From Cognatundibacterium squillarum (GTDB taxonomy: Bacteria > Pseudomonadota > Gammaproteobacteria > Burkholderiales > Burkholderiaceae_D): DNA of 64,000 nt. Positions 12,091-63,700 of the stretch are shown one piece after another. The stretch spans positions 1 to 64,000 of the forward strand of contig NZ_BMYU01000004.1 of the NCBI RefSeq assembly GCF_014652435.1. The letters run 5' to 3'. Under the pieces are notes generated by a model that was given only the letters and a program-made list of their open reading frames with translations, was not told the DNA's origin and did not search any database. Positions within the stretch are counted from its first letter, which is position 1, and the number at the start of each line of letters is the position of its first letter. Both the position numbers and the translations under genes were made by a program.

Positions 12091-12447
12091 ATGAATTTCA
12101 AACTGAATCAGGACGAGTTCCGGATACTCCGCCGCATCTACGCTGCCGGCCGCAAAGCCAAAGCGCCGAGTGGCATGCACTTGCAGTATAAGAAACTGGC
12201 TGCCCAGAAGCTGATTATTTTCCGCCGCGACGGCAGCGCCGAACTGACCGCACAAGGCCAGCAAGCGATCTTCGCCGACCTGTGCCTGACCGCACTGAAA
12301 GAACTCAGCGATGGCAAACCGGTGCAACTGACACCGGAAGTCCGTGATTATTTATCCCGCAAATCGATGATTTGCCGCGATGAAGAAAACAACTGGAAAG
12401 TGACCGATAAGGCACGCGAAATCCTGGCCGACGCTGGCATGGCGTAA
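12091..12447 (+). CDS. Conserved hypothetical protein, 118 residues
   Basis: A small, basic, soluble protein starting at ATG 12091 (MNFKLNQDEFRILRRIYAAG). The content is mostly helical with a two-part layout: residues 1-65 contain a segment like a helix-turn-helix followed by 'LIIFRRDGSAELTAQGQQAI', and residues 75-118 end in WKVTDKAREILAD. Both halves look like winged-helix elements ('wing' then 'LT..G...'), but I do not recognise a named family. It is transcribed divergently from the TonB receptor, across the 378-bp gap with the hexamer repeats. A role as a DNA-binding protein is speculative. Confidence 0.6.
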   Translation: MNFKLNQDEFRILRRIYAAGRKAKAPSGMHLQYKKLAAQKLIIFRRDGSAELTAQGQQAIFADLCLTALKELSDGKPVQLTPEVRDYLSRKSMICRDEENNWKVTDKAREILADAGMA

Positions 12448-12610
12448 GCCCCGCATGGCGGGATCACCCGCCCTGCCTCCCCCTTCTCCCGCACTCTTTG
12501 CTTTACACCGTTCGCGCTTCATCCAAAGTCCGCAGCACTCTGCCAGTCGTCGTCCAAACTACACCGGACATACTTTTGCCATCCGAAAGCGCCAAAAACC
12601 GCCATTTTTT

Positions 12611-12701
12611 GCCTCAAATGCGGACTCCGGCACAGCACCCCGGCGGTCGTTGGCAGAAAGTCTGGCTCACCGGAAATGGTGCATGCGGATAGCTGCACAA
12701 T
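12611..12701. repeat. Dispersed 91-bp intergenic repeat, copy A
   Basis: This block aligns without gaps to 60310-60400, with 75 of 91 positions identical by manual comparison. It contains the shared blocks GCCTCAAATGCGG, CGGCGGTCGT, GGCAGAAA, CCGGAAATGG and CTGCACAAT. AATGCGG near the left end and ATGCGG near the right end form an internal near-repeat, each followed by a GCACA element. It lies between convergent genes in the 12448-12867 gap. The rest of that gap holds only the terminator at 12775. Confidence 0.8.
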
Positions 12702-12774
12702 CACCCGATTTTTCTCCTGCCATCTCAGCCCCGGTATCGGCGCGGCAGATGGTGAATGGCGTGCTTCTGAAAGC

Positions 12775-12867: not shown

Positions 12868-14448
12868 TTATTCCGCCTTATTCCGGAACAGCAGCAGCGC
12901 TGCAGCTAGCATCAGCAAACCGGCAAACAGTGCAAGCAGATTGCCGAAGCGGATATACGGCGTGGCACCGCTGTAGCCCTGCACGCTGGTTTCCAGCACG
13001 CCCTGCTTCAGATAAGGCAGCTGCGCATAGACTTTACCGTCGGTGCTGATCGCCACCGTTGCGCCGGTGTTGGTGGTGCTGATCATCGGGCGACCAGTCT
13101 CCAGCACCCGCATCTGGGCGAACTGTAAGTGCTGGGGCATGGCGATTGAATCGCCGTACCATGCCAGATTTGACGCATTCAGCAGTATCGTCGCTGCAGG
13201 AACGCCGCTTTGTATCTGATGGCGAATCTGGTTAGCGATTTCCTCGCCGAACAGACTTTCATAGCAAATATTCGGCATGATCCACTGGTCTTTGACCGGC
13301 ATCGCCATTTGCAATTCACCGGCACCGGTAAAGTCACCGATAGGGATTTGCATCATTTTGACGAACCAGCCGAATCCGGCAGGCACAAACTCACCAAACG
13401 GCAGCAAATGATGTTTGTCGTAACGGTAGTAACTGTTTGCAGCAATCGCGGGACCATAACCGATCAGACTGTTTGCATATTTCTGCGGGCCGTCGTGCAT
13501 GCCCAGCCCCAGCAATACGGCAGTTCCGCTGCGCTCAGAAAACTGACGTACCGAAGACAGATAATCCGGCGGCAGCATCGATGACAATACCGGCAGCGCT
13601 GTTTCCGGCATGGCGACCAGATCCGTGGCTTTGGCTGTTGCCATCTGGTGATACAGCGCCAGCGAATCATTCACATGCTGCTGATCGAACTTAATCGTCT
13701 GATCCACATTACCCTGCAATAAGCGCACCTGTAATGGCTGACCGCTGGCCTGCGTCCAGTGCTGATGGCGCAGCGCGCTGCCAGCCACTGACAAGACGCA
13801 AAGCGCGGCGACCGCGCCCTGCCGCCAGCGCGCAGGTGCGTCGCCGATCAGAAACAGCGCGAGCACGGCAGCGGCAAATGCCGCGATCAGGCTCAGTCCG
13901 TACACGCCGGCAACCGGCGCAAAACCGGCAAACACGCTCTGGCTGTGCGCATAACCGGAAATCGCCCACGGAAAACCGGTCAGCAACCAGCCGCGCAGCC
14001 ATTCAGACAGCATCCAGACAGCAGGCGTCAGCAGCAGCAGCGCAGGTGCAAGCGGGATACGGAAACGGTGACGGATCTGGTGAATCAGCAATGCAGCCAG
14101 ACCGGCATACAAGGCGAGGAAAGCACACAACACCACCAGCGCCAGCACCGCCAGCACCACGGGCATGCCGCCGTAACGCGACATCGCAATCACCAGCCAG
14201 GCGATCGTTGTCAGCATCCAGCCGAAACCGAACACTGCACCGGTCAGAAACGGGCGTTTCTTTTCGGTGTTGTCAGGCAGACTGAGCAGCATGGCAAACA
14301 GCAAAGCCATACTGACCACCTGCACAGGCCACACATAAAACGGCGCAAAGGAAAACACTGCGCTGCTACCGGCTGCCAGTGATAACAACAGCGTTTTCGG
14401 AAGCGACAGCTGACGGAGTTTCTGACCTATGCCCAGCTCAGTCTTCAC
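12868..14448 (-). CDS. lnt: Apolipoprotein N-acyltransferase
   Basis: A 526-residue inner-membrane enzyme of the CN-hydrolase superfamily that adds the third acyl chain to the N-terminal cysteine of lipoproteins. About six to seven membrane segments fill residues 15-225 and one lies near the C-terminus. The catalytic triad residues are visible: MPETALPV (E282), YDKHHLLPFGEF (K345) and MPNICYESLFGE (C395). GTG 14446-14448 is chosen because it gives the usual length and overlaps the corC stop by 11 bp; the first in-frame ATG upstream lies far inside corC. It is the last gene of the miaB-phoH-ybeY-corC-lnt group. Confidence 0.95.
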   Translation of the reverse strand: MKTELGIGQKLRQLSLPKTLLLSLAAGSSAVFSFAPFYVWPVQVVSMALLFAMLLSLPDNTEKKRPFLTGAVFGFGWMLTTIAWLVIAMSRYGGMPVVLAVLALVVLCAFLALYAGLAALLIHQIRHRFRIPLAPALLLLTPAVWMLSEWLRGWLLTGFPWAISGYAHSQSVFAGFAPVAGVYGLSLIAAFAAAVLALFLIGDAPARWRQGAVAALCVLSVAGSALRHQHWTQASGQPLQVRLLQGNVDQTIKFDQQHVNDSLALYHQMATAKATDLVAMPETALPVLSSMLPPDYLSSVRQFSERSGTAVLLGLGMHDGPQKYANSLIGYGPAIAANSYYRYDKHHLLPFGEFVPAGFGWFVKMMQIPIGDFTGAGELQMAMPVKDQWIMPNICYESLFGEEIANQIRHQIQSGVPAATILLNASNLAWYGDSIAMPQHLQFAQMRVLETGRPMISTTNTGATVAISTDGKVYAQLPYLKQGVLETSVQGYSGATPYIRFGNLLALFAGLLMLAAALLLFRNKAE

Positions 14449-15319
14449 TGTCACGCTCTTCAGGAATAATCTGCTCGATCTGCAGCAGCTGTACTTCGGT
14501 CGCATCGGCGCGCAGCACTTCGATATGCAGTTCTTCCCAGTCAAATTCATCGCCTTTGTGCGGAATTTCACCGAGATGCGACACCACAAATTCACCCAGC
14601 GTACGGTCGCTGGCTTCTTTTAACAGCTCGCCGGTTTCTTCGTAGAATTGCGCCAGCGTGGTGGTGCCTTTCACGCGCCAGCGTTTGGCATTACCTTTGT
14701 AATCCAGCGCAATAACGTGATCTTCTTCCTCGGAATCGTACTCATCGTCAATATCACCGACGATTTGTTCGAGTACGTCTTCGATGGTAATCAGCCCCGC
14801 AACGGCACCGTATTCATCGACAACCATCGCCATGTGATTGCGGTTGGCGCGGAAATCACGCAGCAACACGTTCAGGCGCTTGGATTCGGGAATATAAGTA
14901 ACCGGACGCAGCATCGTCTTCAGTTCAAAGGTTTCACCGGCGTAATAGCGCAGCAAATCTTTGGCCAGTAAGACACCGACGATCTTATCCGGATCATCAT
15001 CAATAGCAGGAAAGCGGGAATGTGCGGTATCGAGTACCTGGTGTATCCATTCATCAATCGGACGTGAAATATCAATCACATCCATTTGTGCCAGCGGCAC
15101 CATGATGTCACGGGCGCATAAGTCGGATACCTGAAACACGCCTTCGATCATTGCCAGTGCATCGGCATCGATCAGATTGCGTTCTTGTGCTTCAGTCAGG
15201 ATTTCAAGGAGTTCTGCCCGGTTTTCCGGTTCCGGAGAGATCAGTGCGGTCAGTTTTTCAAACAATGTCCGCGGAGGTTTAAGGTCAGCCGGTCTGACCC
15301 TGCGCGAGTGCTCTTGCAT
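14438..15319 (-). CDS. corC: CorC/HlyC-type CBS-domain protein
   Basis: A 293-residue cytoplasmic protein without the membrane domain of longer relatives. It has a short N-terminal region with 'RNLIDADALAMIEGV', two CBS domains (about residues 65-190, with DIMVPLAQMD and VVDEYGAVAGLITIEDVLEQIVGDIDDE) and a C-terminal CorC/HlyC domain (about 205-285, FDWEELHIEVLRADA). Family members are associated with Mg2+/Co2+ efflux and membrane function. The gene order ybeY-corC-lnt is widely conserved. The start ATG 15317-15319 has no strong ribosome-binding site. A 119-bp gap separates it from the channel gene upstream. Confidence 0.93.
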   Translation of the reverse strand: MQEHSRRVRPADLKPPRTLFEKLTALISPEPENRAELLEILTEAQERNLIDADALAMIEGVFQVSDLCARDIMVPLAQMDVIDISRPIDEWIHQVLDTAHSRFPAIDDDPDKIVGVLLAKDLLRYYAGETFELKTMLRPVTYIPESKRLNVLLRDFRANRNHMAMVVDEYGAVAGLITIEDVLEQIVGDIDDEYDSEEEDHVIALDYKGNAKRWRVKGTTTLAQFYEETGELLKEASDRTLGEFVVSHLGEIPHKGDEFDWEELHIEVLRADATEVQLLQIEQIIPEERDSED

Positions 15320-29495: not shown

Positions 29496-29740
29496 AAAGG
29501 AAACTGACTGGCCCGTTACCAGTCCTGACACCTGATTTTTACGGAAAATGCGGCAATCTGCATACGGTTTTCTGGAAGTCCAGTCGTTCTGCGGGCGTCC
29601 GGGGTGGTCGCCATTTTTGCCGTGCGGAAAACAGCATACATTGTACCCAGATTCGTTTTTCCGTGCCGGACACTGCCGGGAAGCAGGCAAATCCGCTAAA
29701 ATCGCGCTTTAAGTTTCAATCTAACAATGCGGAGTTTTTT

Positions 29741-45007: not shown

Positions 45008-45469
45008 TCACTGACAAGCAACAGGACGATACTTTTTATCCACGGTTCCACCGCGGCAATCCCAGGAATTACCGCCATCTACAGTCGACATGTGTATTGT
45101 TTTGCCTGCCGCCTGGCCAGAATTAATGGTGGCGGATATTGTGCCAGAAGGATAACTTCCTGTCATGGGCGAGTTGACAGTACTGTACTTACCATTGATT
45201 GTGGCAATAATCTCGGTTTGTGACGGAGTAGCACTGGATAGAACAAATGCTGTTGGCCATGAACTCCTCTGTGCAGCGAACTCAGTTGTTGTCTCCTTCA
45301 TTCCACTAAGCAAATTAACTGCCTCAATCACCTGGGTTCTTGTCACATAATCGTTATATGCTGGCAAGGCAATAGCGGACAATATCCCAATAATAGCAAC
45401 AACAATCATCAGCTCAATCAAGGTAAAGCCTGACTGGACGGCACGATACAACCCTCTGGTATTTTCCAT
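45008..45469 (-). CDS. Type IV pilin (third of three tandem pilins)
   Basis: A 153-residue prepilin: 14-residue leader ending in glycine, then [16 protein letters not shown], the class IVa pilin N-terminus cleaved and methylated by PilD. The C-terminal disulphide region runs from WDCRGG to RPVACQ. It is related to, but well diverged from, the two upstream pilins, which share TTR/TRT QV and the ...KYRPVAC end. A terminator precedes it at 45568. It ends in glutamine, not serine. Confidence 0.93.
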
Positions 45470-45567
45470 GGCAACTTTCCGGAAAAAAGTAACGTTCCCT
45501 GAACGAGAACAAACGAATATTTGCCGTCTCTAGCATATATTGTTCCAATGGCTCACAAAAAACAAAT

Positions 45568-45595
45568 AAAAAAGCCACAACCCAAGTTGTGGCTT
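45568..45595 (-). terminator. Rho-independent terminator after the second pilin
   Basis: AGCCACAAC (45573-45581) pairs with GTTGTGGCT (45586-45594) around CCAA. On the minus strand six T follow. It lies 18 bp after the pilin stop and about 100 bp before the third pilin. Confidence 0.88.
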
Positions 45596-45613
45596 CTGCT
45601 AAACAAGCTACGA

Positions 45614-46075
45614 TTACTTACACGCAACTGGACGATATTTATTCGCTACCGTGCCACCTGTGCACGTCCACGTGTTTCCACCATCAGCTGTTGCAAGTGT
45701 AACAGTACTACCATTTGCCTGACCAGAAGTCATCGTCGCAGTCAAAGTACCAGATGGAAAAGTACCGGCAACTGAGTTCGAAACCGTAGAATATTTACCG
45801 ACGAGAGTCGCAGTTAACTGGGATGCTGTTGGCGTCGCAGTAGAAGGCACCAAACCTGAAGGCCAAGCATTCTTCTGATATCCATACTCTGCCAAAGGGC
45901 CTTTCAAACCACCCATCAGCTCAATTCCCTCAGAAACCTGAGCACGAGTCGTATAGTCATTGTAAGCAGGCAATGCAACCGCCGCCAAAATACCGATAAT
46001 CGCAACAACGATCATCAACTCAATCAAAGTAAAACCTTGCTGCAAACGCTTGCTACTTGTATTCAAATTACTCAC
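45614..46075 (-). CDS. pilA: Type IV pilin (second of three tandem pilins)
   Basis: A 153-residue prepilin read from GTG 46073-46075 (GGGGGGATGCA upstream), with a 14-residue leader before [18 protein letters not shown]. The mature protein of 139 residues is identical to that of the 46144 gene except for six substitutions, all between mature residues 60 and 72. Disulphide cysteines are C124 and C138. A terminator lies upstream (46103) and another downstream (45568), so it is probably expressed by read-through from the first pilin. Confidence 0.94.
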
Positions 46076-46102
46076 TGCATCCCCCCGGAATAACGGACAA
46101 AC

Positions 46103-46130
46103 AAAAGGCGTCACAAAGGACGCCTTTTTT
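46103..46130. terminator. Rho-independent terminator after the first pilin
   Basis: AAAAGGCGTC (46103-46112) pairs with GACGCCTTTT (46119-46128) around ACAAAG. T-rich sequence follows on both strands. It lies 14 bp after the first pilin stop and 28 bp before the second pilin start. Confidence 0.88.
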
Positions 46131-46143
46131 CACTCAAAACAGA

Positions 46144-46593
46144 TTATTTACATGCAACTGGGCGGTATTTGTTTGCAACCGTACCACCAGTACAAGTCCA
46201 AGTATTGCCACCGTCAGCTGTTGCCAGAGTTACAGTGCTGCCATTGGCCTGGCCAGAAGTCATAGTTGCAGTCAATGTGCCAGATGGGAATGTACCTGCA
46301 ACAGAGTTACTAACTGTAGAATATTTACCAACCAAAGTTGCTGTCAGTTCTGTCGCTGCCGGAGTGCCTGTGGAAGGGATTAAAGCACTTGGCCATGCAT
46401 TTTTTTGATACCCATACTCGGCGAGTGGACCTTTCAAGCCACCCATCAATTCGATACCTTCAGAAACCTGAGCGCGGGTTGTGTAATCGTTATAAGCAGG
46501 CAGTGCAACCGCTGCCAAAATACCGATAATCGCAACAACGATCATCAACTCGATCAAGGTAAAACCTTGCTGTACTTTTTTTGCAACTTTCAT
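46144..46593 (-). CDS. pilA: Type IV pilin (first, probably major, pilin)
   Basis: A 149-residue prepilin with a 10-residue leader ([10 protein letters not shown]) before [19 protein letters not shown]5 of the mature chain is present. The C-terminal loop runs from C124 to C138 of the mature chain. GGAGAG precedes ATG 46591-46593. A sigma-54 promoter 52 bp upstream and a strong terminator downstream mark it as the highly expressed subunit of the type IV pilus fibre. Confidence 0.95.
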
Positions 46594-55962: not shown

Positions 55963-58900
55963 ATGGATAAAATCGCTATGAAGAAGTCTGTTTATCTGCT
56001 GTCTTTCTCTCTGGTTACGCAAATGGTACACAGCAATGTGGCATTCGCTGCGGCACCACTCACGATTCCGCAGGCTCCGCTGTCTACTGCTGCGATTAGT
56101 CAGGTGAAACCAAACCTGATGTTTATTCTTGATTCGTCCGGCAGTATGGGGGAGAAGTATTTACCAGACTGGGCAGGCTGGGTTTACTGTGCATATCAGC
56201 TGGACGGATACATGTACTTCGGTCAGGATTGCCGCCAGCTTCCTCCTTATTTCAGCGGCGACTTTAACGCGGTTTACTACAACCCTGAGATCCGCTATCA
56301 GCCTCCCGTTGACGGCGCAGGTAACGAATATCCATCAATCACCACTTATACCCGCGTCAGGCAAAACGCTTTTGATCCGGACTCACCTTTTGTGAATCTG
56401 CTAACCGATCTGGACGATTTTGTCTGGTGCAATGACAATAATCCCAGTGACTGTCTGCGGAATAATAATTTCCTGCTGCCTTCTACCATTGGCGGAAAAC
56501 GTTATGCGACACAAAATCCGGTAAAGGCAACCGGCACATCAAAATTTGTATCCGGCACACCTGCCAGTCCTGTTGTCAGCGCTGCATCCGCTGTCGGCCC
56601 CTACTATTACCGCATCAATCCGGGTGAATACTGTACGGATGATGCACTGACTGACTGCATACTTGCCAGCGGTCCCAGCGCTGCTTACCCTTATCCTGCC
56701 CGTGTCCGCTGGTGTGACTCTGAAACCAATGCAAAAACGGCGATTCCTCCGGTCGGTGCTTGTCGTGCCACACAATCTGCAACCTACTACAACGTTCGCT
56801 ACCTGACAGGACAGTTTAACAGCGGGGCCCCGGCTGCTACCGCCAGCGCGGCAAGCGTCAGTATTCCGCTTGCCCTTGATAACTGCAGCCGCAGCGATCA
56901 GACCGGCGTTGAACGAATTGAGGTGGACGGAGTCGGAAATATTCTGAAAACAGCAACCAAGCTGAGTAAAAGCTCTGCCAACCTGATCAATGACATTATC
57001 AAAGCTGGCGCCAGCGCAGGTTACAGCTTTAGTAAAGACGGGGCTGGGGATCTGGTGATTACAGCACCGCTGACACTCACGCGCGACGCCAGCGTTAAAC
57101 TGGTGAAATCCGCGGCATCCACAGGAAGCTGCAGCATCACTCCTGACCAGGCAGTACTGAGTGGCTACCGCGCAGCACGCGGGGCCATTCCCGCCGGAAG
57201 CTACGGAAGTTTCACGCGCACCGATATCGTTCCGGGAAAGACTTTTACCCGCTACCCGGGACGGTCAGACTGTGTCAGCAGTGCAACCAGCTGTAACTAC
57301 ACGGAAGAAATGACCAATTTCGCTAACTGGTTCACTTATTACCAGTCACGCATGCAAACCATGAAAACCGTGGTAAGCCGCAGCTTTAAACCGATTGATA
57401 ACCGCTTCCGTGTTGGATTTATTGATATCTACGGACAAAATTATCTGACACCGAAAGTGTTTAACAGCGGCACCGGCAGCCAGAAAGAAGCCTGGTATGC
57501 GCAATTGTTCGGCGTCAAACCCGGTGGCGCAACGCCTTTGCGTTCTGCTCTGGCGCGGGTGGGGAAAATTTTCGCAGGGAAAGGGCCGGCTGGCACCAGT
57601 GATCCGGTCGAATATTCCTGCCAGCAAAATTTTGCGCTGCTAACAACGGATGGTTTCTGGAATACAGATACTGAATCCGATGTTCAGAATATCAATGGTG
57701 GACAAATCGGCAATCAGGACGGTGGTACGACTGCCAGACCCAAATTTGAAGGCCCCGTCGCGAGCTCAAACTCACTTGCCGACGTCGCTAAGTATTACTA
57801 CGAAACCGATATCCGGAACAGCAGCTTCAATAACTGCACCGGCGCACTGGGCAATGATGTCTGCACGAATAATGTATTTACGTCAGCCAAAGATCCGAAC
57901 AATAAACAGCATATGACCACCTACACGCTTGGCCTTGGTGTGGATGGTGAGCTGCGCTATCGTCCGGATTATGCCAGCGCCAGCACCGGTGATTTTGCGA
58001 AGATCAAAAATGGTTTAATGAACTGGCCGGAACCTGTCAGCAATACGAATTCAGCCGTTGATGATCTGTGGCACGCTGCGGTCAACGGTGGCGGCAGCTA
58101 CTTCAGCGCCAAGGACCCTGCTCAGCTCACACGATCGCTGACCGCATCGCTGAACGAAATCTCTGCGAAAACAGCCAGCGGTGGCGGGGCCGGTACCAGC
58201 AGTCTGAATCCGATCGGCGGCAACAACTATGCTTACATTTCCAGCTATACCTCCGTGAAATGGCAGGGCAATATAGAACGCAGAACCATCGATACGCTGA
58301 CTGGCCAGATCAGTAAAGCCGCGGGACGCTGTGTTGAAAACGTAGTACCGGGCAACTGCCCGTTACCCGGTGCTGTACAGCAATTTGTGGAAAATGACAG
58401 CATCATCTATCGTTGCGTAACCCCGGGTCTGCCGGATGTGGAATTACCGGTAGCATGTAACGGCAGCATGAACAACAAAGTACGTGCCGACAGCGATACA
58501 CGGACAATTTATATTGCCGGCGCGGCGAATACGCTGCTGCCGTTCACCGCATCAGGCTTGCAGACTGCAGGCAAAAACAGCAGTTTCTTCACCGCTGCGA
58601 ATCTGAGTCAGTACGGAAATCTTGACCCGGTCACACAGCAACCGGCGGTTACCCTGACAAATCTGGTGGACTATCTGCGCGGGCAATCGCAATATGAAGA
58701 CAGGCAGTCGAATCCGCCGCTGAACCGGTTGTTCCGCGCAAGGGAAGCGGTACTCGGCGACATTACCGAATCTCAGCTGGCCTACGTCGGCAAACCGACG
58801 TTCAGCTATGTTGATGCCGGCTACGATGCTTTTAAAACAGCAAATGCCAGCCGCACACCGATGATTTATGTTGGTGCTAACGATGCCATGCTGCATGCGT

Positions 58901-60165
58901 TTGACGCTGATTCGCTGGAAGAAAAATGGGCCTTTATTCCGAGTGCCGTGCTCGGTAATCTGTGGAAACTGGCTGACATCAATTACGCCGGCAATCACCA
59001 GAATTTTGTTAACGGTTCTCCGGTGATTGCGGATGTCTATGACGGTACGAACTGGAAAACCATTCTGGTGGCAGGTCTGAACGGTGGCGGACGTGGTTAC
59101 TTTGCAATGGATATCACCAATCCGCTGGCGCCATCCTTGCTGTGGGAATTCGGTCCATCCAATGACAGTGATGTCGGCTACAGTTTTTCACCACCTGTGG
59201 TGACAAAAACAAGCGCCGGACAATGGGTCGTGTTACTGAGTTCCGGCTACAACAATGGCAATCCCGGCTCTGGTCTCGGCTGTGTGATTGCGCTGAATGC
59301 GAACAGCGGCGCAGTCAGTAAAAAGATCTGCAATACCTCAGGCAGCGCAGTCGCGCCGAGTGGCCTTGGCCAGCTGGCAGCCTGGGCTGACAGCCCGCAA
59401 ACCAATAACGTCACCGAACTGGTCTATGCCGGTGACCTGAACGGTGATGTCTGGAAATTTAATCTGACCACGGAAGCCGTCAGCCGGCTTGCCACGCTGA
59501 AAGATAACAACGGCAATCGTCAGCCGGTGACGACCGAGCCGGCACTGGGTAATGTCAAAAATACGAAAGTGATTTTTGTCGGTACTGGTAAATATCTGGA
59601 ACTGGCAGATATCAGCAACCGTTCGGCGCAATCCCTGTATGCACTGAAGGATGATCCTGCGCTGGACAGTCCTGCCGGTGTCAGTGCCCGTAGCAAGCTG
59701 GTTCAGAAAACCATTTCGCAGTCCGGCGGCACCCGCAGTATTAACAACAGCAATGTGGATTACAGCGCCGATCTGGGCTGGTATCTGGACTGGCCGGACA
59801 GTGGTGAACGCATTACTTTATCGCCTAAACTCGATATGGGAACACTGATTGTGCCGAGTAACGTTCCTTCGGACCAAGCCTGTTCTCCGGGTGGTTATGG
59901 CTGGCTGAATCTGCTGGACTACGCCAATGGCAATAACAAGTTCAACACTTCCGGCGGTGTGATGGCAGGAAAGATGTATTCCAGCCAGATTGTCGGCTAC
60001 AACGTGGTCTACACCAAAAACGGCAAACGTGTTATTTCGATTATTAAGGAAAATGATCCGAATCCGGAAAAAGCCAGTGAAGATGATGCCGGTACGCAGC
60101 GCTTCATCGGCAAACGCATCGTCTGGCGCGAGCTGGTGCCGGATCTGGTGATGCCGAAGCCGTAA
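55963..60165 (+). CDS. pilY1: PilY1-type pilus tip adhesin / assembly protein
   Basis: A 1400-residue exported protein with a signal peptide after a short leader (MKKSVYLLSFSLVTQMVHSN region); starts at 55963 or 55978 are both possible. A von Willebrand A-like domain opens with MFILDSSGSMGEKY (MIDAS, residues about 53-66). From about residue 950 the PilY1 beta-propeller contains GANDAMLHAFDADSLEEKWAF and a calcium-binding loop GDLNGDVWKF near residues 1157-1166. PilY1 sits at the pilus tip and controls retraction, adhesion and mechanosensing. It is the last gene of the operon and is followed by a terminator. Confidence 0.93.
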   Translation: MDKIAMKKSVYLLSFSLVTQMVHSNVAFAAAPLTIPQAPLSTAAISQVKPNLMFILDSSGSMGEKYLPDWAGWVYCAYQLDGYMYFGQDCRQLPPYFSGDFNAVYYNPEIRYQPPVDGAGNEYPSITTYTRVRQNAFDPDSPFVNLLTDLDDFVWCNDNNPSDCLRNNNFLLPSTIGGKRYATQNPVKATGTSKFVSGTPASPVVSAASAVGPYYYRINPGEYCTDDALTDCILASGPSAAYPYPARVRWCDSETNAKTAIPPVGACRATQSATYYNVRYLTGQFNSGAPAATASAASVSIPLALDNCSRSDQTGVERIEVDGVGNILKTATKLSKSSANLINDIIKAGASAGYSFSKDGAGDLVITAPLTLTRDASVKLVKSAASTGSCSITPDQAVLSGYRAARGAIPAGSYGSFTRTDIVPGKTFTRYPGRSDCVSSATSCNYTEEMTNFANWFTYYQSRMQTMKTVVSRSFKPIDNRFRVGFIDIYGQNYLTPKVFNSGTGSQKEAWYAQLFGVKPGGATPLRSALARVGKIFAGKGPAGTSDPVEYSCQQNFALLTTDGFWNTDTESDVQNINGGQIGNQDGGTTARPKFEGPVASSNSLADVAKYYYETDIRNSSFNNCTGALGNDVCTNNVFTSAKDPNNKQHMTTYTLGLGVDGELRYRPDYASASTGDFAKIKNGLMNWPEPVSNTNSAVDDLWHAAVNGGGSYFSAKDPAQLTRSLTASLNEISAKTASGGGAGTSSLNPIGGNNYAYISSYTSVKWQGNIERRTIDTLTGQISKAAGRCVENVVPGNCPLPGAVQQFVENDSIIYRCVTPGLPDVELPVACNGSMNNKVRADSDTRTIYIAGAANTLLPFTASGLQTAGKNSSFFTAANLSQYGNLDPVTQQPAVTLTNLVDYLRGQSQYEDRQSNPPLNRLFRAREAVLGDITESQLAYVGKPTFSYVDAGYDAFKTANASRTPMIYVGANDAMLHAFDADSLEEKWAFIPSAVLGNLWKLADINYAGNHQNFVNGSPVIADVYDGTNWKTILVAGLNGGGRGYFAMDITNPLAPSLLWEFGPSNDSDVGYSFSPPVVTKTSAGQWVVLLSSGYNNGNPGSGLGCVIALNANSGAVSKKICNTSGSAVAPSGLGQLAAWADSPQTNNVTELVYAGDLNGDVWKFNLTTEAVSRLATLKDNNGNRQPVTTEPALGNVKNTKVIFVGTGKYLELADISNRSAQSLYALKDDPALDSPAGVSARSKLVQKTISQSGGTRSINNSNVDYSADLGWYLDWPDSGERITLSPKLDMGTLIVPSNVPSDQACSPGGYGWLNLLDYANGNNKFNTSGGVMAGKMYSSQIVGYNVVYTKNGKRVISIIKENDPNPEKASEDDAGTQRFIGKRIVWRELVPDLVMPKP

Positions 60166-60228: not shown

Positions 60229-60309
60229 GCGGTTTCAGTCGCTGTCTGATGCTGCGCTGACGTTGTGCCGACTCAGAGGCCGCCCCGCAACGCAAAACCG
60301 GCTGAAAAT

Positions 60310-60400
60310 GCCTCAAATGCGGTGTTCAGCACAGCGATCCGGCGGTCGTCGGCAGAAACTCCGGCTCTCCGGAAATGGCGAATGCGGAGTTCTGCACAAT
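60310..60400. repeat. Dispersed 91-bp intergenic repeat, copy B
   Basis: This is the second copy of the block at 12611-12701, gap-free, with 75 of 91 positions identical. It ends 3 bp before the left terminal inverted repeat of the MITE-like element at 60404. It has GCCTCAAATGCGG and CTGCACAAT at its ends and no coding potential that I trust. Confidence 0.8.
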
Positions 60401-60403
60401 ACC

Positions 60404-60751
60404 AGAACTCATTTCATCAATAGCCACGAGTGCGAACGCGAGGTGCCGGGAGGCAGTGTGCGGCGTCGTTGCGCAGCACAGGCTGGTGCCTGTGCAAGCG
60501 ACGCAACAAAGCAATGCGCCCGGCACCTCCGTTCCCGCAGGGTTTGCCTCATAGCGCACGCTGGACAGCGTTGGACGCGTTGTGAATAGCACCGCTATTC
60601 ACTACCTTGTCCCCTTGCAGGGCGCATGTGCGCTGGTAAGCGCACATCGTTACGCAGGCATGCAGCTTTGCTGCATGAATTCCCTGCTACACCCTTGCCA
60701 GCCTGCGCTATGAGACAAACGCATCTCGCGGGTATTTATGAAATGAGTTCT
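60404..60751. mobile_element. 348-bp MITE-like element with 27-bp terminal inverted repeats
   Basis: The left end (60404-60430) and right end (60725-60751) are inverted copies matching at 24 of 27 positions; the outermost 14, AGAACTCATTTCAT, are perfect. There is no transposase, so it is a non-autonomous element. Internally AGGTGCCGGG (60441-60450) pairs with CCCGGCACCT (60519-60528), enclosing an 8-bp stem with TGGT loop (60476-60495). A second inverted pair, TTTGCCTCATAGCGCA (60541-60556) and its near-complement (60703-60718), lies further in. No clear target-site duplication is seen (TACC left, AACC right). It fills the gap between pilY1 and the GH31 gene. Confidence 0.75.
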
Positions 60752-60762
60752 AACCATCAGGC

Positions 60763-63700
60763 TCAGTCTTTACGCTGTGCGCTGTCGCCTTCATAGCCCG
60801 TCAGCATCGCATTTGCCCAGTTAGCGCAGGCGCTGGCAGCCGCCTTATCGCTGCTGACTGTGCGCAACTCCAGCTCGCGCACACCACGCACGTCCAGTTC
60901 CGGTTTCACCACGGCCGGTGCTTTGATCAGACCGCTGCTGAACAACAGGCGACCGTCACCGAGAATACGGAATTGCACGCCGCTGTGCGCACTGCAACGG
61001 TCATCAATGCCGACGTCGGCACGGAACCATTGCCAGTTGCCGTTCAGCGTATAACGCTGGCTGCTGTTACCAGTCACCTGTAAGCCCTGACGGAACTGCA
61101 AGCCATTCATACTGATCTGCGGAACCGGCAATACTTTGCCACCGCTGACAGGTAAGGTATTCAGCGCAAGTTGCTGCGCCGGTTTTTGCGGTGCAGCTGC
61201 CTCCAGTACCGCAAACTCAGAAATCGTCACCGGTGCCACGGTTTTCGGAATCTGCGTATTCACTGCTTTTGCCTGATCGGCATTGCCGGCGGCATTCAGT
61301 ATCATCGGGTCTGCTGCGACACCATCGTCATTCTGATCATGTGTGCTCAGAATACGCATGCGCAGTAAGCGGCCCGCCACTGGTGCAAAACTGACTTGCT
61401 GTTTCTCTTTTTGTTTTTTCAGTTGTCCGCTGAACACTGGCTTACCCCACTCACCATTGCTGTCACCGACATAAATTTCGATTGCTTTCGGCTGGCCGTA
61501 TTCCCAGTGCTGATCAGTGCGTCCTGTAATTTCTATGCCTTTCACCATGCGACGTTCACCCAGCGCCAGCGTGAATTCGTGCGCACCGGTTTTCTGTGCC
61601 TGATCACGCACGGTGCGGAACCAGGTTTCCGGCTTGCCATCGAAGGCGTTTTCCAGCGGATGCCCCGGCTCCTCTGCCGGACGGCTGACTACCAGCAATG
61701 CATCCGATGGAATGCTTTCGCCAAGTGCCGGTGCTGCCGGATAATCTGCTGTCGGAGTCTGCTGCGTACCGGCGGCAATATCCAGTGTAAATTCCTGTGG
61801 CTGACGGATATCCAGCGCCGCCGTCTGCACATGCACCGTACCGTAACGCTCATCCGCTGCATACCACCAGCCGGTCTGACCTGCCTGTGCCTGCGCCGGA
61901 TCTAACTGCGCCAGCACTTTGCCATTTTGTGTAACTTGCTGCGGCAACGCACGGGTGTGTACCAGCAGGCTGACAGCACGCTGCGTTTCCTGCCCCTGAT
62001 AACTGCCATTCACCGCACCGACCTGAATCTGCACTTTGCCTGCACCCTGCGGCGGTGCATCAACACGAATCTGCTGATGACTGAACGCGCCTTTTTCAAA
62101 CTGACGGGTTTCGCCGTCATCTTCATACAAATCGAACTGCGAACTGCCTTTCGGATAAATATCCAGTGTCAGCCGGTCTTTCGGTTTTTGTCCGTCATAC
62201 AGTGATTCCGGATACATCGGCAGAATCGCACCGGCACGCACCATCACCGGCAAACGTTCCAGCGTCACCTGCTGATCAATCACACGTCCCGCCGCTCCCG
62301 CCTGCACCACGCGGCCATCCCAGTAATCAATCCATTCGCCCTGCGGCAGATAGATATCGCGCCGCCAGCCACGGCTGGCCGCCTGACTCTTGTACACCGG
62401 TGCCACCAGCAGATCACGGCCTAAGAAAAACTGATAGCGGTAGCGTTCATCCATAGCATGCGCGTCCTGCGGATGATCCCACATCAGACCGCGCACCAGC
62501 GGCGCGCCGGTTTGCTGCGCCTCGCGTGCCAGCGTGTACATATACGGCATTAAGCGCATCTTCAGTTTCAGATACCGGCGGTTTATGCTGCGGTAAGGCT
62601 CATCAAACCACCACGGATGTTTGCGCTCTGCTTTGGACCAGCCTGACATGCCCATCAGCACCGGCGTAAAAGTTTTCCATTGCAGATCGCGGGTGTAGGT
62701 TTCCGGACTGCCGCCGAAAATGCCATCCACATCGCCGGTGGCATAAGCCTGTCCGGACAAGCCGGAGCCGATCAGGGTAGGAATATGCCAGCGTATGTAA
62801 TCCCAGCTGCCGGACTGATCACCGGTCCATGTGACTGCGTATCGCTGCACACCAGCCCAGCCCATCACGGTCCACACAAACGGACGACTATCGGAAGCTG
62901 ACAAAATACCGTTGGCAGCGGCATGATTCGCATCCATCGCAAACTGATAGCCTTTACCGGTCCACGCCACATCCAGCTTTTGCGCGCGTGTTCCTGCGGT
63001 ACCGACTTCCCACTGAATTTTGTCGACACCGTTTTCTGTCCACAGGCCGGTACGGAAGCCATATTGTTTCAGCCCCTTCACGGTTTCCGGTAATCCGGTA
63101 TAGCCGCAGCCATAGCCGTCATTCGGCAAAATCCAGCCGCCCGGCATATCGTGTTTGCGGTATTGCGCCGCGACCGACTGCACCACATCCGGCGTGGTGC
63201 CGGTCGGGCCATCGCTCCAGCCAGCAGGAACCGTACCCGGTTTTTTGCGGTTATCGCCATCGTTATAACAATCGGCATCGCCGTACTCCAGCGCCCAGCG
63301 CGGCAGCAAAGGCACACGGCCGGTCAGCGCAGTGTACTGGCGCAGCGCATCGTGCAAACCGCCGACCATGTAATACGCATCAAATCCGCGCTCCTGATGG
63401 CTGGCAGTCAGATAGTTCTGCTGACGGAAATCATAGACACCCGGTGCAAAGGTATTGCGCAACACAGCGTAGCCCTGCGAACTGATAAACACCGGCGCAG
63501 GATTCGGACGGTCACCCTCCTCCCAGCCGCCGGAATACGAAATATCGAGCTGCTTGCCCTGAAATGCAAACTGACCATTCTGCTGACCACCGCCCCAGAA
63601 TGCTTCACCGGCTTTCGATGACAAGGTCTGATAACTTTGCTTCTCCCCCAGATCCAGCGGCTGGAGTTCTTCCCAGATGCGCTGCTGATTACCGGCCTGA

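Follow-up and report, generated by a model that had tools for sequence, protein, structure and literature searches.

A high-copy, non-palindromic intergenic element in Cognatundibacterium squillarum, possibly a protein-binding site at converging gene ends

What kind of sequence recurs, free of gaps, in two intergenic spaces 48 kb apart? The window analysed here is a 64,000-nucleotide stretch of the C. squillarum genome (NZ_BMYU01000004.1, positions 1 to 64,000), for which a preliminary description had reported a pair of 91-bp copies at 12611–12701 and 60310–60400. The pair was recovered at exactly these positions: the copies agree at 75 of 91 positions with no gap, a match to which blastn restricted to the window assigns E = 4.9e-21. 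The similarity runs on weakly to 107 bp (79%). As had been described, both copies lie in intergenic DNA past gene ends; both are on the plus strand, and by our own ORF-based gene calls, on which all statements on gene context rest, both gaps are convergent. Copy 1 is flanked by genes at 12091–12447(+) and 12868–14454(−), copy 2 by one at 55963–60165(+) and another, on the minus strand, that ends at 60763. The window also contains a degenerate third copy, on the minus strand at 29548–29638 in a divergent gap (26.6 bits; 32 bits with a rebuilt profile). Other repeats are also present in the window. One adjoins copy 2 (60402–60720) and appears by eye to be an imperfect hairpin, with an inverted repeat at 60542–60571/60691–60720 and parts of its flank found again at C4 210566–210788 and 336189–336359; another region, 45297–46572, contains imperfect tandem repeats of 140–300 bp at a spacing of 530–606 bp.

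The preliminary description left room for a pair produced by one segmental duplication. A profile built from the copies (E <= 1e-3) detects 151 copies in 1,655,751 of the 4,185,104 bp of the genome (40%, composed of the sampled stretches and the window) and none in the reversed sequence, which extrapolates to about 382 copies genome-wide and refutes an origin limited to two copies. BLAST with copy 1 against the same genome gave 306 first-look candidates, and all of the 40 that were scored reached E 1.6e-18 or better. The element family is real and large: a non-palindromic DNA family of about 380 copies, not recognised in the searches made. Among the papers listed in literature searches, mostly the best of longer result sets, none describes it by title or abstract opening.

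Among relatives the family is sparse. BLAST with copy 2 found a match in 0 of 42 congeners. The profile search of the 41 other congeners gave weak copies (34–57 bits) in G004 (2), G005 (3), and G018 (3), and one marginal partial match each in G013, G023, and G036 (E 0.002–0.007), of which the match in G023 scores 12.7 bits and falls within coding DNA. Across 294 genomes of the family, the element occurs only here and in G004, G005, and G018, with partial matches in G116 and G177 (20.6 and 23.3 bits), and among 399 genomes drawn from the order, a draw evidently without these three congeners, this genome alone has matches at E <= 1e-4. Plasmid and phage records gave no match, and viral contigs a single one of 13 bits. 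G004, G005, and G018 have one site in common at which variation falls in the columns with lower information content in the present genome (MWU p = 0.007, Fisher p = 0.07); the same conservation test was negative at a second site common to the three (MWU p = 0.26, Fisher p = 0.54).

The conserved part of the element spans model positions 13–101 and carries about 116 bits, as computed from 122 copies scoring above 60 bits. From the column information, this body corresponds to 12613–12701 in copy 1 (nhmmer, model positions 2–101 on 12602–12701, 96.5 bits) and to 60312–60400 in copy 2 (3–101 on 60302–60400, 101.9 bits). Three conserved blocks can be distinguished. In copy 1 the family alignment places block A (AAATGCGG..GCACAGC) at 12616–12636 and the central block, around GGCAGAAAGTC, at 12644–12676; block B (ATGCGGATAGCTGCACAAT) occupies 12683–12701. 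Family-wide, block B reads TGCGGA..CTGCACAAT, or TGACGA.., and the centre, GTCGGCAGAAAGTC.GG, is nearly invariant. Blocks A and B are imperfect direct repeats that flank the centre, identical at 15 of 20 positions in common variants and at 12 of 20 in the consensus.

The spacing of the blocks, counted only for uniquely matching blocks, falls into two classes. From A to the centre it is 32 (50 copies) or 42 (4 copies; n = 59), and from the centre to B 33 (106 copies) or 44 (6 copies; n = 114). Where both spacings could be measured (n = 51), 43 copies are short on both sides and four are long on both sides, and none mixes the classes. Most copies have the standard length in both gaps, and a few exceed it in each by one helical turn. 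The length conservation noted for the original pair extends to the family with few indels, in that 131 of the 151 matches show no net length change; 11 are longer by 18–21 bp, three are longer by 9–10 bp, and six are shorter by 1–5 bp. Where the blocks could be placed, the extra length is split between the two gaps, with 10 bp in one and 11 bp in the other. The long copies have sequence in common and may be one subfamily; as they look related, a single change in each gap may underlie the helical-turn spacing. Some subfamily structure is also evident from the pairwise identities (s.d. 0.070 versus 0.039 when shuffled). Of the two alignments of copies, the first retained 33 of 36 rows and the second 62 of 63; the in-register statistics use 127 copies, with 24 of the 151 omitted.

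Conservation of this extent invites the question of a fold. RNAalifold on 62 copies predicts three base pairs, none of them covarying, and dependence between positions is short range, with a mean excess mutual information of 0.097 bit at distance 1 and 0.002 bit at distances of 30 or more. A structured RNA, such as a terminator, attenuator, riboswitch, or sRNA, would agree with the location at 3′ ends, with a single conserved 3-bp hairpin in block A, and with a mild enrichment of T about 21–25 bp beyond the body; these are outweighed by the missing covariation and by the window having no Rfam match at gathering scores, while permissive Rfam scoring of three loci returned one subthreshold match, outside the element. 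We rejected an RNA element on these grounds, and consider it very improbable.

A different kind of regularity is found in the base composition. The A+T profile from −60 to 175 has its peak at a period of 10.4 bp, matched by none of 500 column shuffles, and the left arm by itself has a period of 10.1 bp (0 of 500 shuffles). The A/T tracts are homopolymeric on either strand; AAA or TTT occupies positions 6–8 in 110 of 127 copies, where 36.6 would be expected under column independence. The tracts recur at about 10 bp on the left (from the family profile, 12575–12615 in copy 1 and 60274–60314 in copy 2) and are weaker on the right (12702–12735 and 60401–60434). When the body is taken by itself, a period of 8.2 bp is strongest and the 9.5–11.5 band attains only p = 0.03; the right flank is less clear than the left, with a peak of 11.5 bp at the edge of the tested band. 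The stretch from 185 to 300 fails for A+T periodicity (p = 0.07). The stretch from −190 to −70, intended as a control, also passes with small power (10.9 bp, 0 of 500), so either the arms extend further or the test is lenient. With these caveats on body, right flank, and control, the phased tracts resemble curved or protein-wrapped DNA, and the 10-bp rhythm suggests DNA wrapped on protein rather than RNA.

As to location, 144 of the 151 copies are intergenic, with at most 20 nt of overlap with any called gene; 68 of them lie in convergent, 61 in tandem, and 15 in divergent gaps. Counted by junction, a copy is present at 65 of 192 where genes converge, at 60 of 996 where they are in tandem (Fisher p = 1.8e-23 for this contrast), and at 14 of 191 where they diverge. 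Of the convergent gaps of at least 100 bp, 65 of 101 contain a copy, a figure inflated because the element itself lengthens the gap. The right end points toward a gene end in 105 cases and toward a gene start in 39; in tandem gaps, 37 copies run against and 24 with the direction of the genes, a difference that is not significant (p = 0.12). Copies close to each other tend to point the same way (within 6 kb, 50 of 63). For the first 80 copies this gives p = 0.002–0.009 under a null that accounts for gene direction; for all 151 the unconditional binomial p is 3e-6, part of which may be gene direction, and pairs with both copies in convergent gaps (5 of 8 within 6 kb) are too few. A further small repeat of about 40–80 bp abuts several element copies (C1 near 110958, 144793, 202133, and 218448).

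The preliminary description had compared the pair with REP and BIME sequences. REPs are defined as 20–40 bp palindromic stem-loops tagged GTAG or CGTC (PMC3733652). REPs and BIMEs are intergenic, reach high copy numbers, prefer convergent spaces, and differ from species to species, and BIME-2 is cleaved by gyrase (PMC6379681, PMC1525189, PMC3733652); convergent spaces are prone to supercoiling (PMC1525189). The likeness holds with respect to high copy number, intergenic location (144/151), convergent preference (65/192), and variation between species. Membership does not hold: the element has a body of about 90 bp with three spaced blocks, no palindrome or stem-loop of the REP/BIME type (RNAalifold and mutual information), and no linked RAYT gene. 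Some REP families flank their RAYT gene. The genome contains one RAYT-type (Y1_Tnp) gene (C11 113908–114231, L083), and no copy occurs within 1.5 kb on either side, so that neither a RAYT-driven REP family nor a REPIN/RAYT arrangement fits. This gene has GGGTCAGAGT motifs nearby. By the defining features tested the element is not a REP or BIME; by analogy, it may nevertheless work like BIME-2.

MITE-type elements such as ERIC, RUP, and Correia are likewise dispersed intergenic units of about 100 bp. The preliminary description spoke of a functional or mobile unit, and the dispersed, high-copy, intergenic unit with a bias to gene ends and convergent gaps is borne out, whereas mobility is unproven and copies inside genes argue against simple insertion. 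The main rival to the reading that we favour is nevertheless a non-autonomous, REP- or MITE-like mobile element with hundreds of insertions in this lineage, in which the blocks would be transposase-binding sites and convergent gaps the places where insertions are tolerated; the convergent bias would equally follow from purging of insertions elsewhere. Such a burst in one species would account for about 380 copies here against 0–3 in relatives. The copy 1 gap measures 420 bp compared with about 90–170 bp, as estimated from tblastn ends, at three loci of matching gene order in Undibacterium (U. curvum, U. crateris, and U. jejuense), and convergent gaps have a median length of 341 bp with the element and 71 bp without it. 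On these lengths, the intergenic copies are likely to be in part insertions. Weak intergenic matches of at least 5 bits (20 versus 0 in reversed sequence), the shared orientation of neighbours, and the subfamily structure point the same way. Weak matches in coding DNA show no clear excess, either in the 1.66 Mb (50 versus 25 reversed, at least 5 bits) or in 0.4 Mb of congener G006 (6 versus 2).

Against mobility, terminal inverted repeats are absent (best 9 of 15 in the consensus), and no target-site duplication was found (best 4 of 127 copies over 28,644 combinations of boundary and length, with ungapped boundaries only); both distinguish the element from ERIC/RUP/Correia-type MITEs and led us to reject MITE membership. 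Indels are few, and in the first 855,751 bp sampled there are no split halves around another gene, an arrangement that an autonomous partner might have shown; the leftover half matches there, 29 of the left half (best E 0.05) and 18 of the right (best E 0.44), are weak. Flank matching revealed no empty site in the sampled part of the genome; 21 of 302 flanks have non-self matches at E <= 1e-4, and no copy has them on both flanks. In 400 kb compared with G006, none of 34 conserved adjacent gene pairs has the element here, which leaves that comparison neutral between insertion and origin in place. A retron as the source of single-stranded DNA was rejected as well, as nothing near it resembles the element (best match 0.6 bits). 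The reverse transcriptase gene concerned (C2 290254–292330) is type XIII-like and the sole RVT_1 match in the genome, with a long hairpin, identified by eye, upstream. Overall, we regard a mobile element as a serious possibility, if a rather unlikely one.

The idea of an integron-like recombination site for gene cassettes arises from paired copies. Weak copies lie 1.7–2.0 kb apart in G004, G005, and G018, with pretoxin-HINT genes between them in G005 and G018 (L106 and L107), and at C4 91843–92893 two copies flank one gene that is missing from that place in all three congeners. Only short ORFs lie between the paired copies in G004 (L105), and the orthologues of the genes on either side of the C4 unit are convergent in the three congeners, an estimated few bp apart. 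However, the genes between same-orientation neighbours face either way and look ordinary, there is no fold, and an imperfect palindrome or hairpin of the attC type was not found on either strand (33 copies; RNAalifold). The mixed orientation of the enclosed genes led us to reject a cassette system, which we hold to be extremely improbable.

Two copies located inside intact genes are particularly informative with respect to insertion. A 58-bit copy lies on the sense strand of a photolyase-like DPRP gene (PF04244). A DPRP match is present in 31 congeners, 29 of which gave loci for comparison; the length at the copy site is equal in these 29. The sequence here differs from the congener majority at 46 of 97 sites, and at 31 of these 46 the element base is found here, as against 7 in the congeners. 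Twelve of the 29 congener genes match the element best in this very register, which indicates that partial similarity predated the copy. The encoded protein deviates from the congeners at this place to an extent exceeded by only 13 of 490 overlapping segments, and conserved columns are broken at 3 of 14 positions in the copy versus 17 of 238 elsewhere (three are gap columns). The second copy, of 61 bits, is antisense in an ABC-F gene. Two homologues that are not element-like (45–47% identity) align gap-free over it, and over residues 230–278 the lengths of 21 homologues deviate by −4 to +6 residues, compared with the roughly 30 extra residues expected of an insertion. Because relatives align at both in-gene copies with no comparable insertion and do not carry the motif, at least one copy was, judging from these comparisons, probably not made by insertion and arose in place. 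A weaker possibility for ABC-F is that a flexible linker was swapped for an equal-length copy.

These observations could also be turned around, so that the whole family would consist of copies of a DPRP gene fragment. The 58-bit match, the 31 of 46 sites, and the shared register in congeners would suit such an origin. The ABC-F gene also has a match, of 61 bits, and both cannot be the source; moreover, G004, G005, and G018 have element copies, yet their DPRP genes are near background (26–27 of 96 versus a mean of 24). A DPRP source is accordingly improbable. A more tentative view, which we find doubtful as a whole though worth stating, is that the element is a wrapping site of about 90 bp and 116 bits at about one third of convergent junctions, whose copies would have been written in place rather than inserted, even within conserved coding genes. 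They could have arisen through selection acting on partial matches, or through ectopic conversion with other copies as donors.

Our best explanation, to which we give about an even chance, is that the element is a protein-binding site in double-stranded DNA, wrapped and located at converging gene ends in a manner similar to BIME-2, and not an RNA. A nucleoprotein site is the simplest account because of the conserved blocks, their helical spacing, the phased tracts, the lack of covariation, and the convergent location. A sequence-specific protein complex would contact A, centre, and B from the same face of the helix. The DNA, whose A/T tracts follow the helical turn chiefly in the left arm, would wrap or bend around this complex. 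Most sites separate converging genes, whose transcription would accumulate positive supercoils from either side; the most likely role would be to anchor there a complex that manages topology or limits collisions, a function attributed to BIME-2 in E. coli.

A narrower form of this explanation, a strong DNA-gyrase site of the BIME-2 or Mu type, is unlikely on present evidence. The phased 10-bp A/T variation beside the centre, less clear on the right flank, and the position at converging gene ends both fit it. The element further resembles the E. coli gyrase motif, which is 130 bp long with phased 10-bp G/C variation, and gyrase is reported to prefer BIME-2 (PMC6379681). Unlike that motif, called too degenerate for motif finders in PMC6379681, the element carries about 116 bits; its sequence specificity is much higher, and a single species accounts for its high copy number. 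The same paper finds that the attraction of gyrase downstream of transcription units is not hard-wired in sequence (PMC6379681). Moreover, type II topoisomerase A-subunit genes give two family matches here, as in most of the 17 genomes searched, usual in number and length (the names GyrA and ParC are inferred from length) and shared with relatives without the element; no extra topoisomerase was found in this comparison. Because the copy number is particular to one species and the topoisomerase genes are ordinary, gyrase on its own is not enough to account for the specificity. A dedicated protein, which may recruit gyrase, agrees better with the specificity and with the restriction to one species.

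If the protein-binding reading is true, the element would be a second, sequence-unrelated answer to the problem that BIMEs are thought to solve. Its sequence specificity would be sufficient to fish out the binding protein directly, and the role of high-copy repeats between convergent genes would become testable. The in-gene copies, finally, raise the question of how a long motif arises in place under coding constraint.
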